A stretch of 64,000 nt of DNA from Ornithinibacillus sp. 4-3 (GTDB lineage: Bacteria > Bacillota > Bacilli > Bacillales > Amphibacillaceae), in NCBI RefSeq assembly GCF_040958695.1, contig NZ_CP162599.1, positions 158,001-222,000 of the forward strand, in the 5' to 3' direction. A model generated the notes under the pieces. That model was given only the letters and a program-made list of their open reading frames with translations. It had not been told where the DNA came from and ran no database searches. Position 1 is the stretch's first letter. The number at the start of each line of letters is the position of its first letter. The position numbers were made by a program, and so were the translations under genes. Below, piece after piece: positions 1,834 to 43,904 of the stretch.

Positions 1834-2278
1834 GATTAGAATCCTCAGTAATGATATTATACAATTTTTGGGCAAAATCCCTAAATTGCTTTGTTTCTTT
1901 TAAGGATAATTTAGAATAATACTTTTCTATAACCAAGTCATCCATTTCATCATATTTTTTAAAAAATTCCTTTCCTTTCCCGTCGATTCTTACCAAAATT
2001 TCCCTTCTATTTTGTGGGTTGATACTTCTTGAGACATAGTTTCCTTGCTCTAATTTATTAACAAGCTGACTTACTGAACTTATTGATAGCTGTAATTTTT
2101 GAGATATGTCTTGAACTTTTGCTGGTTCAATCTCATGAATAAGATGGAGTACCATAAACTGCTTTGGAGGGAGTTCAATATCTAATAAAGAGTAATAATT
2201 AATTACTAAATGATGGTTGATTTTATCAAATAATGAGAAACCCTCTTTAATGAAATCACCTTGGTTCAAATTATTCAC
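1826..2278 (-). CDS. MarR family transcriptional regulator
   Basis: A 150-residue protein with the MarR winged-helix domain in roughly residues 30-105. The recognition helix region reads DISQKLQLSISSVSQLVNKLEQ and the wing NPQNRREILVRIDGKG. It is the first gene of a two-gene operon with the overlapping CPBP protease. Upstream sits a consensus sigma-A promoter with a long palindrome just downstream of the -10 box, the expected place for an autorepressor operator. The ligand is unknown. MarR proteins usually act as dimeric repressors released by small phenolic, oxidative or antimicrobial signals. Confidence 0.9.
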   Translation of the reverse strand: MNNLNQGDFIKEGFSLFDKINHHLVINYYSLLDIELPPKQFMVLHLIHEIEPAKVQDISQKLQLSISSVSQLVNKLEQGNYVSRSINPQNRREILVRIDGKGKEFFKKYDEMDDLVIEKYYSKLSLKETKQFRDFAQKLYNIITEDSNHV

Positions 2279-2287
2279 CCCTTAGCA

Positions 2288-2363
2288 TTTATATACTTAA
2301 ACAGTTTATTAACATAAATTGTTTAAGTATATAAATTATAATAACATGTACTTGAATTGTCAA
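2288..2363 (-). promoter_or_regulatory. consensus promoter and 21-bp palindromic operator of marR-CPBP
   Basis: On the minus strand there is a perfect TTGACA (2358-2363), a 17-base spacer and a perfect TATAAT (2335-2340). Immediately downstream, 2288-2308 and 2315-2335 are 21-base inverted arms with one mismatch and a 6-base spacer, overlapping the -10. This is the classic geometry of a MarR autorepression operator. Confidence 0.85.
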
Positions 2364-2484
2364 GAGAGCTGATGTATTTTTTGTTGTAGATTGATGTATC
2401 CATACAAAAGGAGTACTAAGATCATTGCAGTTAGACTGCTATCATGAACAAGTTCTTTGATAATCTTGATGGGACATATCCGAT

Positions 2485-2678
2485 AATTCACAGCTTGTTC
2501 CTTTTCAATATAGTGGTCATGGGCCTTCTTGGGAAGAACATGATAAGTTTAATCAACTATTGACACAATTTATTTAGTTTAGGCATTCTCCATTTAATAT
2601 ATCCTTTTTATTGATACAAGTAATCATCTAAGCCTAATATACACACTTATTTGATTTTCCTATGATAACGATAGGGAA
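2485..2678 (+). pseudogene. duplicated 3' fragment of the alpha/beta hydrolase gene (repeat copy 2)
   Basis: The fragment matches 603-797 in the same orientation, including the SGHGP histidine region, the LTQFI-stop end and ~100 bases of 3' flank, with point differences. It has no start and no hydrolase core, so it cannot be functional. It marks the far boundary of the MarR/CPBP module and implies duplication or insertion at the 3' end of the hydrolase gene. Confidence 0.8.
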
Positions 2679-2685
2679 TATGATA

Positions 2686-2715
2686 TTGTTTACGCTTCGC
2701 GGTTGCTCCTATAAT
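2686..2715 (+). promoter_or_regulatory. promoter of thioredoxin-like gene
   Basis: TTGTTT, an 18-base spacer and TATAAT lie 45 bases upstream of the start, followed by an AAGGAGATGATTTG ribosome site. Confidence 0.5.
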
Positions 2716-2759
2716 AAAATTAAGTATTAATACTACAAAATTTTAAGGAGATGATTTGA

Positions 2760-2996
2760 ATGACAAAAGCTGTTTTTTATCATGCAGGATGTCCAGTTTG
2801 TGTGGATGCGGAGCAAGTAGTTCTTGACTATCTTGACAAATCAAAAATTACTATAGAAATCGTGCATCTTGGTACAGATCAAAATCGAATTGAAGAAGCG
2901 GAGAAGGCGGGTGTGAAATCCGTTCCAGCATTATTAATTGGCGAAAATGTATATCATATCAATTATGGCGCGAGTCTAGATGAGGTTAAAGGATAA
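2760..2996 (+). CDS. thioredoxin-family / glutaredoxin-like small protein
   Basis: A 78-residue cytoplasmic thioredoxin fold. The redox motif CPVC lies near residues 11-14, followed by an alpha helix, and the cis-proline loop is VKSVPALLI. It is shorter than thioredoxin (~105 residues), like the small glutaredoxin/NrdH-like proteins of bacilli. The start follows a strong AAGGAG site. It stands alone between the decayed hydrolase fragment and a terminator. The role is presumably thiol-disulfide exchange, but the partner is not evident. Confidence 0.85.
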   Translation: MTKAVFYHAGCPVCVDAEQVVLDYLDKSKITIEIVHLGTDQNRIEEAEKAGVKSVPALLIGENVYHINYGASLDEVKG

Positions 2997-3004
2997 TATC
3001 AAAA

Positions 3005-3036
3005 AGAAGGTGCTCCTGAGCGCCTTCTCTTGTTTT
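3005..3036 (+). terminator. Rho-independent terminator
   Basis: AGAAGGTGCT and AGCGCCTTCT pair around CCTG with one G-T wobble, followed by CTTGTTTT. Confidence 0.8.
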
Positions 3037-3072
3037 AGATTTATATTATACCTTTACGATACGCTTAGATGC

Positions 3073-3969
3073 CTAACTAAAGCTTTTACCCTTGACTGTT
3101 GTAATCAATTGTTCCATAAAGACACGACTAGCTGCACATAAGTATTTATTCTTTCGATAAATGATACCAATCTGAGTGGTAATTACCGGATCTTGAATCG
3201 GAATCGTTTGAATTTGTGGATGATCAAGATAATCTAAGTAAGCTTTTGGTAATATCGTGATGCCAACGCCCTCGCTAACCATATTGATGATTGTTTCCAT
3301 TGTCGTTATTTCTAGTAAAGGCTGGGGAGTGAAACCCATGGAACGACACTGCTCATTAATCACTTGTCGCAAGAAATAGGTGTCAGGTAATAAGACAGAA
3401 GGCGTATCTTTGAGAATATAAGGTGTTACAAATGCTTCTTCCGCAATGGGATGACCGATAGGTGCTGCCAAAGCAAGATTTTCTTTATAGAGCGGAATCA
3501 CTTCCAGGTCTTCATGCTCCATAGGTAAAAATACAATACCCAAATCAAGTTCATTTTGTAGTAGCCCTTTGTAAATATCACCAGTCCGTAGCCCATGCAC
3601 AGAGAGCTCTACATTGGGATAATCATGCTGAAATCCGATAACAGTGGGGGGAAGCAAGTAATTAATAACCGTTAGAAGTGCACCAATTTTCAGTGTGCCT
3701 CTCTTTAGTCCTTGCAGTTCGCTAATCGCCGCACTTGCCTGTGAAAGTTCATGAACCACATTGTAGCTATGATGTAGCAATATTTTTCCTGCTTCTGTGA
3801 GCGCGTTTTTCTTACCAATGCGATCAAACAAGGGCATACCCACCTCATGCTCTAGCAAGCGAATTTGTTGACTTAGAGAGGGCTGGGCGATGCCAAGCTT
3901 TTCGGCAGCACGAGTAAAATGTAGTTCTTCACATAAAGTCATAAAATATTCCAATTGCCTTAGTTCCAT
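3073..3969 (-). CDS. LysR family transcriptional regulator
   Basis: A 298-residue LysR-type regulator. The N-terminal winged helix-turn-helix contains MELRQLEYFMTLCEELHFT and AAEKLGIAQPSLSQQIRLLE. The C-terminal effector domain spans about residues 90-290 with the usual two alpha/beta lobes. It resembles the CynR/CysL-like group, but no cognate operon is adjacent: the divergent neighbour is a MOSC protein more than 360 bases away. An inverted repeat (4008-4016 with 4042-4050) lies in its own upstream region and could be the autoregulatory site. The effector is unknown. Confidence 0.9.
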   Translation of the reverse strand: MELRQLEYFMTLCEELHFTRAAEKLGIAQPSLSQQIRLLEHEVGMPLFDRIGKKNALTEAGKILLHHSYNVVHELSQASAAISELQGLKRGTLKIGALLTVINYLLPPTVIGFQHDYPNVELSVHGLRTGDIYKGLLQNELDLGIVFLPMEHEDLEVIPLYKENLALAAPIGHPIAEEAFVTPYILKDTPSVLLPDTYFLRQVINEQCRSMGFTPQPLLEITTMETIINMVSEGVGITILPKAYLDYLDHPQIQTIPIQDPVITTQIGIIYRKNKYLCAASRVFMEQLITTVKGKSFS

Positions 3970-39725: not shown

Positions 39726-40667
39726 ATGGAATTACAGAGTTTCCATATTCATCCATATATAGAAGCAGGAAATATTGTTTGCCCTGAGATTAAGCTATCG
39801 TATGAAAAAGGAAAAACAATTGGTATTTATACAGATGCTAAAAGAGTGCAATATTTATTAAGAAATTTTATGAAACAGCAAAACACATATGTACATGTGA
39901 AAGAGGATGCGTTATATCGTAATTTGACAGTAAAAGAGCATATTAAGTTTTTCAAGAGATTATATGGATCAAAAGAGCCTGTTGAATCATTATTAATGAT
40001 GGTTGGCTTAGATAATATTGCAAGTACCCGTGTAAAGAATCTAACAAAGAGTGAATATCAGCTCCTACAATATATAAGGTTTTATCTTAATTCTGCAAAT
40101 ACGCTTATCTTAGAAGAACCGCTACAAAACATAGAAGAGTATCCAAAACAGTTAATGATTAAGATTCTTGAAAATTTACCTTCTAAAATGACGATTTTAC
40201 TATCTAATAATTTAGAGGATTTGCTTATTTCGTGTAACGAAGTTTATCGATTAGATGTAGAGGGATTAAGGCAATTAGATACAGATAGTCAAGATTCGAT
40301 AGGTTCTGAACCAGTAAATACTTTACCAATGAAAGTTGATAAAATTCCAACAAAGAAAAATGATAAAATTATTTTATTTAACCCGCCAGAAATTGATTAT
40401 ATTGAAAGCGTAGAAGGGGATGTCCATGTATATGTTGGAGGAGAAGCATATCCCTGTGCGCTCACTTTAACAGATTTAGAAAACCGTCTTATGTCACTTG
40501 GATTTTTCCGATGTCATCGTTCTTATATTGTAAATTTACAAAAAGTGCGGGAAATTATTACTTGGACACGAAATAGTTATAGTTTGTCGATACATACGAC
40601 AACAAATACAACCGTCCCATTGTCCAAAAATAAATTACCAATTTTAAAGAAATTAATCGGAATTTGA
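39726..40667 (+). CDS. degenerate ABC ATPase domain fused to LytTR DNA-binding domain
   Basis: A 313-residue two-domain protein. Residues ~15-180 follow the ABC ATPase layout but the catalytic motifs are broken. The Walker A position reads GIYTDAKR (second Gly and Ser/Thr lost), the signature is LTKSE instead of LSGGQ, Walker B is LILEEP, and the H-loop His is Asn (LLSNN). Residues ~215-312 are a LytTR domain (IDYIESVEGDVHVYV, LMSLGFFRCHRSYIVNL). It probably binds DNA and senses or couples to the adjacent ABC transporter. The start follows AAGGTGAGG. The next ABC genes begin 150 bases downstream on the same strand. Confidence 0.85.
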   Translation: MELQSFHIHPYIEAGNIVCPEIKLSYEKGKTIGIYTDAKRVQYLLRNFMKQQNTYVHVKEDALYRNLTVKEHIKFFKRLYGSKEPVESLLMMVGLDNIASTRVKNLTKSEYQLLQYIRFYLNSANTLILEEPLQNIEEYPKQLMIKILENLPSKMTILLSNNLEDLLISCNEVYRLDVEGLRQLDTDSQDSIGSEPVNTLPMKVDKIPTKKNDKIILFNPPEIDYIESVEGDVHVYVGGEAYPCALTLTDLENRLMSLGFFRCHRSYIVNLQKVREIITWTRNSYSLSIHTTTNTTVPLSKNKLPILKKLIGI

Positions 40668-40817
40668 TATATTTCCCCGGAAATAAATTAGCTTATTTTG
40701 TCTTTCAATAACTCCATTTAGACTCCAATATACTCTTTTCGTCTCTTTTATAATGTGAGAATTGTAATTTACCTTTACAGTAAGGTTAAGCAGAAAACGA
40801 AAGAGGAGCTGAGGAGT

Positions 40818-41666
40818 TTGGCGAATGTAATTGAAGTACAAAGTGTACAGAAGAAATTCGGATATAAAAATGCATTAGAAAGTGTAACTTTCTCCATTGA
40901 AAAAGGGGAAATATTTGGATTTCTTGGACCGAGTGGGTCCGGAAAAACAACAATGATCAAAATCTTAACTGCACAGCTTTATCATGATCAAGGTAAAGTG
41001 GAGGTTTTTGAAAAACCTGTAAAGGAAATGGCGAAAAATGATAATCGGAAGCGTTTTGGCATTTTAACAGATAATAGTGGGTTATATGTTCGATTATCTA
41101 TTGAAGAAAACTTATTACTCTACTGTGATTTGTATGGTGTTCCGAAAACAGCAATAAAAGAAGCATTAGAATTTGTAAAGCTTTATGAGGATCGGAAAAA
41201 ACGAGTAGCAATCTTATCAAAAGGAATGACGCAGCGTGTTTTATTAGCACGTGCAATTTTGCATAAACCATCTCTATTATTCTTAGATGAGCCAACTTCG
41301 GCACTTGATCCAGCAAGTACAGCACATATTCATAATGGATTACGTCAGTTAAATAAAATGGGAACAACGATATTTTTGACTACGCATGATATGCAAGAAG
41401 CAGAAAGCTTATGTGACCGAGTTGCCTTCCTAGATAAAGGAGAAGTACGTGCTATTGGTACTCCAAGTGAGTTAAAACAACAATATAGTGAAAAAACAAT
41501 CACTGTTGAGCTTACAGATGGCACATTTCAAGTTATAGAAAACCATCCTAGTCAAGCGAAAAAGCTTTACGAATGGATGGAAACAGGAGAAATTTTGCGC
41601 ATCCATACAAATGAACCGAATTTAGGAGATATTTTTATGCAAATAACAGGGAGTGATTTACAATGA
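40818..41666 (+). CDS. ABC transporter ATP-binding protein
   Basis: A 282-residue CcmA/NatA-type ATPase with intact GPSGSGKTT, LSKGMTQR signature, LLFLDEPTSALD and TTHDMQEAE. I choose the TTG at 40818, nine bases after AAAGAGGAG, giving MANVIEVQSV; the frame is open further up to a GTG at 40755 with no ribosome site. Overlaps the permease start by four bases. With the permease it forms an exporter, and the preceding pseudo-ABC LytTR protein is its likely regulator. Confidence 0.9.
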   Translation: MANVIEVQSVQKKFGYKNALESVTFSIEKGEIFGFLGPSGSGKTTMIKILTAQLYHDQGKVEVFEKPVKEMAKNDNRKRFGILTDNSGLYVRLSIEENLLLYCDLYGVPKTAIKEALEFVKLYEDRKKRVAILSKGMTQRVLLARAILHKPSLLFLDEPTSALDPASTAHIHNGLRQLNKMGTTIFLTTHDMQEAESLCDRVAFLDKGEVRAIGTPSELKQQYSEKTITVELTDGTFQVIENHPSQAKKLYEWMETGEILRIHTNEPNLGDIFMQITGSDLQ

Positions 41667-42346
41667 TAAGTACTTCAATAACTAGAATTCAAGCAATTTT
41701 CATGAAAGATTATCGAGAATTTTCGCGAAATTATGCAGTCTCCGTTATGATGATTATGCCTATAGTAATGGCTTTTATTTATAAAGATATGACTATAGAT
41801 GTTATCGAGAAGATGTTTTTCCCAACATCAATTGGTCTTGGAATGGTTACCGCATTCGTTCAAGCATGTTTAATTGCAGAGGAGAAGGAAAGAAATACAT
41901 TACGAAGTTTATTATTATCACCTGCCTCTTTAATGGATATTCTAACAGGAAAAAGTCTTCTTGTTGCGGTTGTCAGCACGTTCACATTAGGGCTTAGTTA
42001 TTTCATTTTAGATTTCATGCCTAGTATTTATTTTATTCTTGCACTACTTCTTTCTATTTTCTTTTACGCAGCACTTGGTACGATATGTGGTTTATTTGCT
42101 AAATCAACAATGGAGGCAACATTTACTGTACTTCCTGCAGCAATTATTTTCCCATTTGGTCCGCTTGTGATGTCTTTTGCAGAACGTTTTCCTATATTTG
42201 AATTAGCTAAATGGTTGCCAAGCTCGCAATTATTTGAGATTGCAAATGGAGAAAATTTAGTATCCGCATTTTTAATTATTATTGCATGGACAGTTGTTGC
42301 TTGGATCGTAGCAGTAATTTTATGTAAGAAGCGAATGGTTGATTAA
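41663..42346 (+). CDS. ABC-2 type transporter permease
   Basis: A 227-residue permease with six membrane segments and the ABC-2 signature EEKERNTLRSLLLSPASLMDILTGKS. It is about the minimal length for a half-transporter. Coupled to the ATPase by ATGA overlap. The substrate is unknown; LytTR-linked ABC-2 exporters are often involved in peptide or drug efflux. Confidence 0.88.
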   Translation: MISTSITRIQAIFMKDYREFSRNYAVSVMMIMPIVMAFIYKDMTIDVIEKMFFPTSIGLGMVTAFVQACLIAEEKERNTLRSLLLSPASLMDILTGKSLLVAVVSTFTLGLSYFILDFMPSIYFILALLLSIFFYAALGTICGLFAKSTMEATFTVLPAAIIFPFGPLVMSFAERFPIFELAKWLPSSQLFEIANGENLVSAFLIIIAWTVVAWIVAVILCKKRMVD

Positions 42347-42404: not shown

Positions 42405-42494
42405 TTTAAAAAATTAAAGCCAAATGACTTAGTCAATTGTCTAATAAATAGAGCAACACTTCAAAGACTAGTGTGAAAAGTTGGGAAGATAGGG

Positions 42495-43024
42495 GTGAGG
42501 AATATTAACAAATTAGTAAAAAAGCACAAAAAGGGGATGATAAGGCGTTTATCAACCTCTTCAAAAAATACGAAGAAGATATTTATCGCATGGCGTATGT
42601 ATATGTGAAGAATTCAGATGATGCATTGGATGTAGTACAGGAAACAGCTTATAAATCATTTACACAAATTAAAACATTAAAGAATCCAGAATATTTTAAA
42701 ACATGGTTGATTCGTATTGCGATAAATATTTCACTGGATTTTTTAAAAAAACAGAAGAAAATTGTTTATTTAAATACAGAGCATACAGACAGCTTATCGA
42801 CTAATCCAGAAGATGCTTCACTACAAATTACACTGGAATCCTTAATGGAGAGATTGACTGAGCAGGAAAAAAGCATTGTATTACTAAGGTATTATGCCGA
42901 TCAGACAATGAGTGAGATTGCCAAAACATTAGATATTCCTTTAGGAACAGTGAAGACGGTTTTGTATCGTGCTTTAAATAAATTGAGAACTCAAATGACG
43001 AGGGAGGATATATATGAGCAATGA
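42495..43024 (+). CDS. ECF RNA polymerase sigma factor with anomalous 5' end
   Basis: The sigma-70 regions 2 and 4 are intact: YEEDIYRMAYVYVKNSDDAL and VVQETAYKSF, then LTEQEKSIVLLRYYADQTM and IPLGTVKTVLYRALNKL. The first ATG in this frame (42590) would remove the start of region 2. In-frame codons back to 42512 read SKKAQKGDDKAFINLFKKYEE, clearly sigma-like, but no ATG/GTG/TTG exists before a stop at 42506. Two explanations fit: an ATT start at 42512 (GGGGTGAGG 11 bases upstream), or a GTG start at 42495 followed by a -1 shift at A_AAA_AAG (42518-42524), giving MRNINKLVKKAQKGDD. It overlaps its anti-sigma gene by 11 bases. Confidence 0.85.
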
Positions 43025-43904
43025 AATTAAGCGTGAAATGAAAAAGATTGATATTCCCAAAAATTTGCATGAACAAACAATTCTAGGTGTTAAACAAGCA
43101 AAACAGGAACACAAAAAGGGTAAGAGGCTTTCTAAATGGATTTTAAGTGCAGCAGCCTTCCTGATTATTGTAGGAGGTATGTTTACAGTAGCTGGTTCGC
43201 CATTAACAGAGGCAATGGAAACCTTATTAGGGAAGTTTATTGGTAAAGAAATAATGGATGAGGCACTTGAAATACATCCTGAGGAGTTTGAAATGGCTTT
43301 TCCACAAATGGAGCAGCATCTCAAATTAGCTGAAGAGCATCTTTCACCAGAGGATTTTGAAAAATATGGACAGCTAATAAAAGAACATATGGAAATACTT
43401 CTAAATTGGGATAAGCCTGATGCAAATAGACAGGAGCTAGAAAAGCGCGAAGAAGAACTTATAAAAGAATTAGAGAAGTACGGGATAGATGATCTGACAA
43501 CACATACGTTGGAAGAAGCACAAGCGATGGTTGATTATACGCTGAAGTACCCTACTTATCTACCTGAGGGTTACGAGGTAATGTATGAATCAATCACAAC
43601 AGATGAAGCAAATGTAGGAAAAGATCCGCTTGTTTTATTAGGATTTGTTAATAACTCAACAGAGGGCACTCTATATACACTGACAAGAAAAATAGATACA
43701 GAGCAAGAGAATGAATTAGAATGGTATGCTCATATCGATACGTATCAGCATAATGGTTATACCTTTGAACATGCCTATGACGAAATAGATGGTGATGTAC
43801 AAGGAATGCGTGTTCAATTCCCTGAGGAAGAATATGAAATTATTATCCATAGTTCTGTATCGAAGGAAGAGATGGAGAAGGTATTAATGTCAATGATTGA
43901 ATAA
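43014..43904 (+). CDS. membrane-anchored anti-sigma factor (putative)
   Basis: A 296-residue protein. A basic cytoplasmic N-terminus of ~40 residues (EIKREMKKIDIPKNLHEQ) is followed by one membrane segment (about 42-62, WILSAAAFLIIVGGMFTVAG). A ~230-residue external domain follows, highly acidic and helical first, then beta-rich (PTYLPEGYEVMYESI) like DUF4367-type domains. Position after and overlap with an ECF sigma gene mark it as the cognate anti-sigma. The external domain presumably senses envelope stress. Confidence 0.8.
   Translation: MSNEIKREMKKIDIPKNLHEQTILGVKQAKQEHKKGKRLSKWILSAAAFLIIVGGMFTVAGSPLTEAMETLLGKFIGKEIMDEALEIHPEEFEMAFPQMEQHLKLAEEHLSPEDFEKYGQLIKEHMEILLNWDKPDANRQELEKREEELIKELEKYGIDDLTTHTLEEAQAMVDYTLKYPTYLPEGYEVMYESITTDEANVGKDPLVLLGFVNNSTEGTLYTLTRKIDTEQENELEWYAHIDTYQHNGYTFEHAYDEIDGDVQGMRVQFPEEEYEIIIHSSVSKEEMEKVLMSMIE

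Follow-up and report, generated by a model that had tools for sequence, protein, structure and literature searches.

The window, that is, the whole 64,000-nucleotide stretch of Ornithinibacillus sp. 4-3 DNA analysed here, carries an ECF sigma factor gene, a probable anti-sigma factor gene that overlaps its end, and a probable promoter upstream. The features of the locus are listed below.

42416..42425, forward strand: probable -35 element (AAAGCCAAAT) of an autoregulated ECF promoter, assigned by comparison across homologues
42439..42446, forward strand: probable -10 element (GTCTAATA) with GTCTA, kept in homologues
42492..42498, forward strand: Shine-Dalgarno-like (SD) GGGGTGA, containing the GTG 42495-42497 that the earlier note took as the start
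42504..42506, forward strand: probable start codon ATT, 5 nt past the SD and in the frame of the GTG; the homologous position holds ATT, ATC or ATA in most relatives and TTG, ATG or GTG in others
42504..42608, forward strand: frame entered from this ATT (or from the GTG), ended by TGA 42606-42608 unless the ribosome shifts
42509..43024, forward strand: ECF sigma factor reading frame (Sigma70_r2, Sigma70_r4), open from stop to stop over 171 codons
42512..42514, forward strand: alternative ATT in the sigma frame, poorly spaced at 13 nt from GGGGTGA
42518..42524, forward strand: slippery heptamer A_AAA_AAG, with six A against seven in the in-frame relatives that have GTA AAA AAA G
42531..42561, forward strand: hairpin with a 1x1 internal loop between its two stems of 6 bp, separated from the heptamer by 6 nt
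42590..42592, forward strand: first ATG of the sigma frame and start of the 144-aa database proteins, in which the beginning of region 2 is lost
43014..43904, forward strand: probable anti-sigma factor, with an 11-nt overlap with the sigma stop and DUF4367-named relatives

The product of the sigma frame is an ECF sigma-70 protein, with Pfam matches to Sigma70_r2 (49.6 bits) and Sigma70_r4 (55.8 bits) above their cut-offs and a TIGR02937 match of 99.3 bits against a cut-off of 42.9. The best NCBIfam match of the 171-aa frame is TIGR02954 (Sig70_famx3) at 169.6 bits, below the curated cut-off of 188.5, and SigV (NF053879) gives 153.5 bits, below 190. The protein thus resembles TIGR02954/SigV-like factors in its best NCBIfam matches and its linked anti-sigma gene, and differs in that both scores are sub-cut-off. 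The anti-sigma candidate has 296 aa and no Pfam match of its own; its database relatives include DUF4367-named proteins, with 36-54% for most of the 15 non-self matches. Elsewhere in the window, the gene at 39726-40667 encodes a protein with a LytTR DNA-binding domain at its C-terminus and weak similarity to ABC ATPases in its N-terminal part, and it lies directly 5' of an ABC ATPase (40755-41666) and a permease (41663-42346); it looks like an ABC-LytTR fusion regulator of the adjoining transporter. We also note that 2278-3073 and six more gaps of >350 nt are without an ORF of at least 80 aa.

The probable promoter was assessed across 122 homologues of the sigma gene. GTCTA occurs within 130 nt upstream in 112 of these, and in the alignment of the 112 on GTCTA the -35 positions are A 98%, G 94%, C 100%, C 79%, A 96%, A 96% and A 93%; a stricter -35/-10 pattern is found in 79/122. 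The ECF-type arrangement of AAAGCCAAAT and GTCTAATA suggests that the sigma gene is autoregulated. The median distance from GTCTA to the conserved Leu of the N-terminal L-V-K-K-A-Q-K-G motif is 49 nt among the homologues. It is 73 nt in the window and longer still in L028 and L077, so that these three have a longer leader between promoter element and start than most homologues.

The homologue set was obtained from 204 matched loci, which left 183 without duplicates and 122 with at least 150 bits and a match reaching the first 8 query residues; weaker family matches near 1e-31 to 1e-33 are included only in part. The third codon before the conserved Leu lies about 5-6 nt after the SD. It is ATT in 48 homologues, ATC in 27, ATA in 4, TTG in 21, ATG in 11, GTG in 1 and another codon in 10. 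ATG, GTG and TTG are absent between the in-frame stop and the Leu in 30/122; two of these are frame-broken genes, and 26 of the remaining 28 have ATT, ATC or ATA at -3. When the stretch searched after the in-frame stop is lengthened to codon +12, 18/122 are without a canonical codon, and 16 of the 18 have ATT, ATC or ATA at -3. The stop is in many homologues the TGA of the SD itself, which leaves no upstream codon usable as a start.

Start labels, which rest partly on our own rule of SD pairing energy, divide the 122 into 78 ATH (ATT, ATC or ATA), 42 NTG and 2 broken genes. Ten of the 78 ATH rows are ambiguous, with a canonical codon at -5 to -1, and ATH at -3 is missing in three; the start position is an Ile codon in the other 75, while the -4 and -5 codons vary. 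ATA makes up 4 of these 75 codons, whereas in the gene bodies it accounts for 280 of 1048 Ile codons (26.7%). An ordinary Ile codon would not be expected to show such a depletion (p 6e-6 by Fisher's test, the rows not being independent). A canonical codon lies within 10 codons in 46 labelled homologues, as GTG at -6 in 31 of them, and there the ATH codon has the better SD pairing by more than 2 kcal/mol. On the tree the start label changes 14 times versus about 35 times for shuffled labels, and a stop and a canonical codon in frame just upstream of the start replace each other in 10 switches. ATH is found in 70/86 rows of one large group and 8/36 of the other, and it spans 27 family and 49 genus labels, counts that are approximate because coded and NCBI names are mixed. 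At the family level, then, an ATH codon lies behind the SD with no better-placed canonical codon, and it is highly probable from this comparison that an ECF sigma subfamily widespread in Bacillota initiates at AUU/AUC. An SD spacing one base shorter brings the GTG of the SD into frame, and gene callers then choose it, as in P0006 (176 aa) versus P0005 of the same species (173 aa). The subfamily also has a typical Bacillota-like member in Arthrobacter beigongshangensis REN13 (L036), a placement due to either transfer or contamination.

The GTG at 42495 does open a frame other than that of the sigma factor, as the earlier note stated; it encodes 37 aa and stops at 42606-42608. Translation probably does not begin there, because the GTG sits inside GGGGTGA and ATT 42504, in the same frame and 5 nt after the SD, is better placed; the SD pairing of the homologues likewise prefers the ATH codon. 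By its position and SD spacing, ATT 42504 is the probable start of the window's gene, and the window's five clade-mates on the tree are all ATH (SH-aLRT 99). The ORF check of the window also bore out that the sigma frame is open 5' of its first ATG, with TAA at 42506-42508 and no ATG, GTG or TTG before ATG 42590. The suggestion of an ATT start is thus supported by the comparison as far as the rare codon is concerned, but the likely codon is the one at 42504 in the GTG frame rather than that at 42512.

The register of the heptamer allows a -1 shift into the sigma frame, as had been proposed. On its own it is unremarkable, since in-register A_AAA_AAG occurs 3 times in the 51 window ORFs of at least 150 aa and is not avoided in other genes. 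The seven-A form GTA AAA AAA G is present in frame in 12/122 homologues, while the window has six A after GT, and the loss of one A from this Lys-Lys run offsets the sigma frame from the AUU frame by one base. The comparison therefore points to the one-base deletion that had been offered as an alternative, and, judged from the relatives, this base loss is a derived state specific to the lineage. The broken form occurs in 2/122 homologues (the window and L133), and a search of 159 family genomes gave just these two cases. L133 breaks in the same way as the window and is 45% identical to P0006; its sister L102 has ATT and an unbroken frame. Common ancestry of the two broken genes is unsupported, as they are placed apart on the tree, each nearest to rows that are in frame. 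A frameshift conserved across the family was likewise rejected: relatives read the sigma factor in a single continuous frame, the site together with both frames being confined to the 2/122 homologues and 2/159 genomes. This outcome of the proposed comparison of 5' regions argues against family-wide recoding, yet many orthologues are without an ordinary ATG start.

In one genome of a congener of G022 the frameshift was not seen, the nearest homologue being 39% identical, and in one genome of a congener of the window (G001) a close homologue was not found. No relatives of the sigma gene were confirmed in viral contigs, and the protein database gave no candidate for the frame-0 peptide. Other irregular N-termini occur among the homologues. 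L043 (Rummeliibacillus suwonensis) lacks one base in a CAAAAAGGG run close to its start, a little later than the window's site, and an ATG within its SD leads into the sigma frame and gives the protein another N-terminus. L177 and L197 (G337, G238) are conserved except at the N-terminus, which deviates from LVKKAQKGD, possibly through a pair of compensating frame changes.

The hairpin region was examined because the earlier note had already pointed to a TGATAA/TTATCA repeat there. The repeat exists (42538-42543/42549-42554), but it forms the upper half of the larger hairpin 42531-42561, which has a predicted energy of -11.5 kcal/mol (z -3.31; 2/200 shuffles as good). Against synonymous recodings it is more stable (P 0.0017) and ranks 1 of 122 homologues; by raw energy it ranks 6 of 122. 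The five nearest in-frame relatives have -4.1 to -7.7 versus -11.5 in the window. Nothing comparable is seen in L133 (-5.8, rank 63 of 122; P 0.67 versus synonymous recodings). A spacer range of 5-8 nt is given for frameshift sites in the consulted part of PMC4066793; a structure at this distance is present in the window, at 6 nt, and absent from L133. Among the 150 of 225 tRNA candidates that were scored, 44 of 45 matches could be typed and two were tRNA-Lys, both UUU. A pattern for Lys UUU/CUU tRNAs, which is the better test, returned just two tRNA-like sites, the same two. Both the stable hairpin and the lone tRNA-Lys(UUU) suit -1 slippage.

These observations can be combined in a model in which an autoregulated ECF sigma factor of the Bacillota subfamily would initiate at AUU/AUC behind a strong SD. 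The example of Streptomyces sigR suggests that the rare start would hold sigma at a lower level than the co-transcribed anti-sigma factor and render sigma sensitive to IF3. In the window's lineage one A appears to have been lost from the Lys-Lys run, and ribosomes from AUU 42504 would move -1 at A_AAA_AAG to give full-length sigma, helped by the hairpin 6 nt on and the lone tRNA-Lys(UUU). Of the three alternatives set out earlier (-1 shift, ATT start, deletion), the rare start and the base loss both appear to be real, and slippage could join them. We assign a rough probability of 0.45 to the reading that rare start and -1 shift together yield full-length sigma in the window; use of the -1 shift there, judged from sequence features, likewise falls a little short of even odds. 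The fuller picture is more tentative: a doubly attenuated ECF sigma factor, with an AUU start and then a hairpin-stimulated -1 shift after ~7 codons, the AUU/AUC start being old across much of Bacillales-type Bacillota.

Frameshift use is plausible, and its main rival is recent loss of function, in which the rare start is real, the lost A is an inactivating or strongly weakening homopolymer deletion and the slippage is incidental. We regard this as a serious contender, if the less favoured one. The relatives are in frame, a deletion-prone A-run was affected at two separate places on the tree, and 3/171 homologues (L011, L055, L140) have a stop or frame break at another point of the gene, by a test blind to short N-terminal breaks. 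The substitutions among P0002-P0004 (P 0.165 for purifying selection) are compatible with neutrality. The 171-codon open frame, the anti-sigma gene and the promoter elements are nevertheless intact, the downstream hairpin is exceptional, and close relatives that differ at 5 to 7 of 144 residues keep the frame open.

A sequencing or assembly error in the poly-A run, the true gene being an ordinary AUU/AUC-start member, is unlikely. Single-base homopolymer errors are common, and the assembly is one contig. Among the best 120 of 971 database matches, however, P0001-P0004 (97-100% identical) are all called without the N-terminus, which is weak evidence against an error, and the next match is 70% identical. 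P0002 (144 aa; longest contig 15056) shows full identity and P0003 and P0004 97%, and the three lack the N-terminus though callers use the SD's in-frame GTG elsewhere, as in P0006. From the length of the called proteins alone, we infer that the frameshift may be common to P0002-P0004. Direct initiation in the sigma's own frame is very improbable: ATT 42512 is in frame and the 144-aa form is called in databases, but that ATT lies 13 nt beyond GGGGTGA, and initiation at ATG 42590, which has no visible SD, would cost the protein roughly 11 residues at the beginning of the Sigma70_r2 match. Transcriptional slippage was not favoured either, six A being a short run for it.

Relative to the frameshift model, dnaX-type programmed -1 frameshifting is alike in A_AAA_AAG, a short spacer followed by a hairpin, and a lone tRNA-Lys(UUU). 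In dnaX the SD lies about 10 nt upstream of the heptamer. In the window it lies 17 nt upstream, beyond the stimulatory distance, and the shift differs further in occurring after ~7 codons, in restoring a single product and in not being conserved across the family. The lone tRNA-Lys(UUU) of E. coli is described in the accessible portion of PMC5009743. For the rare start, the excerpt of PMC5472188 describes Streptomyces sigR, whose GTC start is repressed by IF3 and keeps sigma below anti-sigma. Both systems have a non-canonical start codon in a sigma gene with the anti-sigma gene next to it, but here the codon is AUU/AUC, the family is a Bacillota ECF subfamily, and the upstream GTG/ATG candidates mostly overlap the SD. 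According to the available section of PMC13009471, infC (IF3) starts with AUU, AUC or AUA, as do S. aureus cvfC1 (AUU) and ccpN (AUA). The infC of the window's genome reads GGAGGTGG-6 nt-ATT AGC AAA GAT, and there too an in-frame ATG directly follows the SD. It shares with the present genes a strong SD followed by an ATH codon; it differs in that a sigma factor is encoded here and an autoregulatory IF3 loop is not evident. In the open-licence literature, no ECF sigma family with an AUU/ATT start or a programmed frameshift was found beyond sigR, and the text of PMC3711429 does not mention sigma, Bacillus or transcription factor.

If the AUU/AUC start is real, many annotations misplace the start for a whole stress sigma subfamily that would be restrained at its start codon, like sigR but with AUU/AUC and in another phylum, and IF3-controlled sigma output would become testable in laboratory Bacillus. 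The window holds a candidate frameshift-dependent member of this subfamily, in which, if the double attenuation is true, two brakes would hold sigma far below anti-sigma and tie its output to the fidelity of both initiation and elongation.
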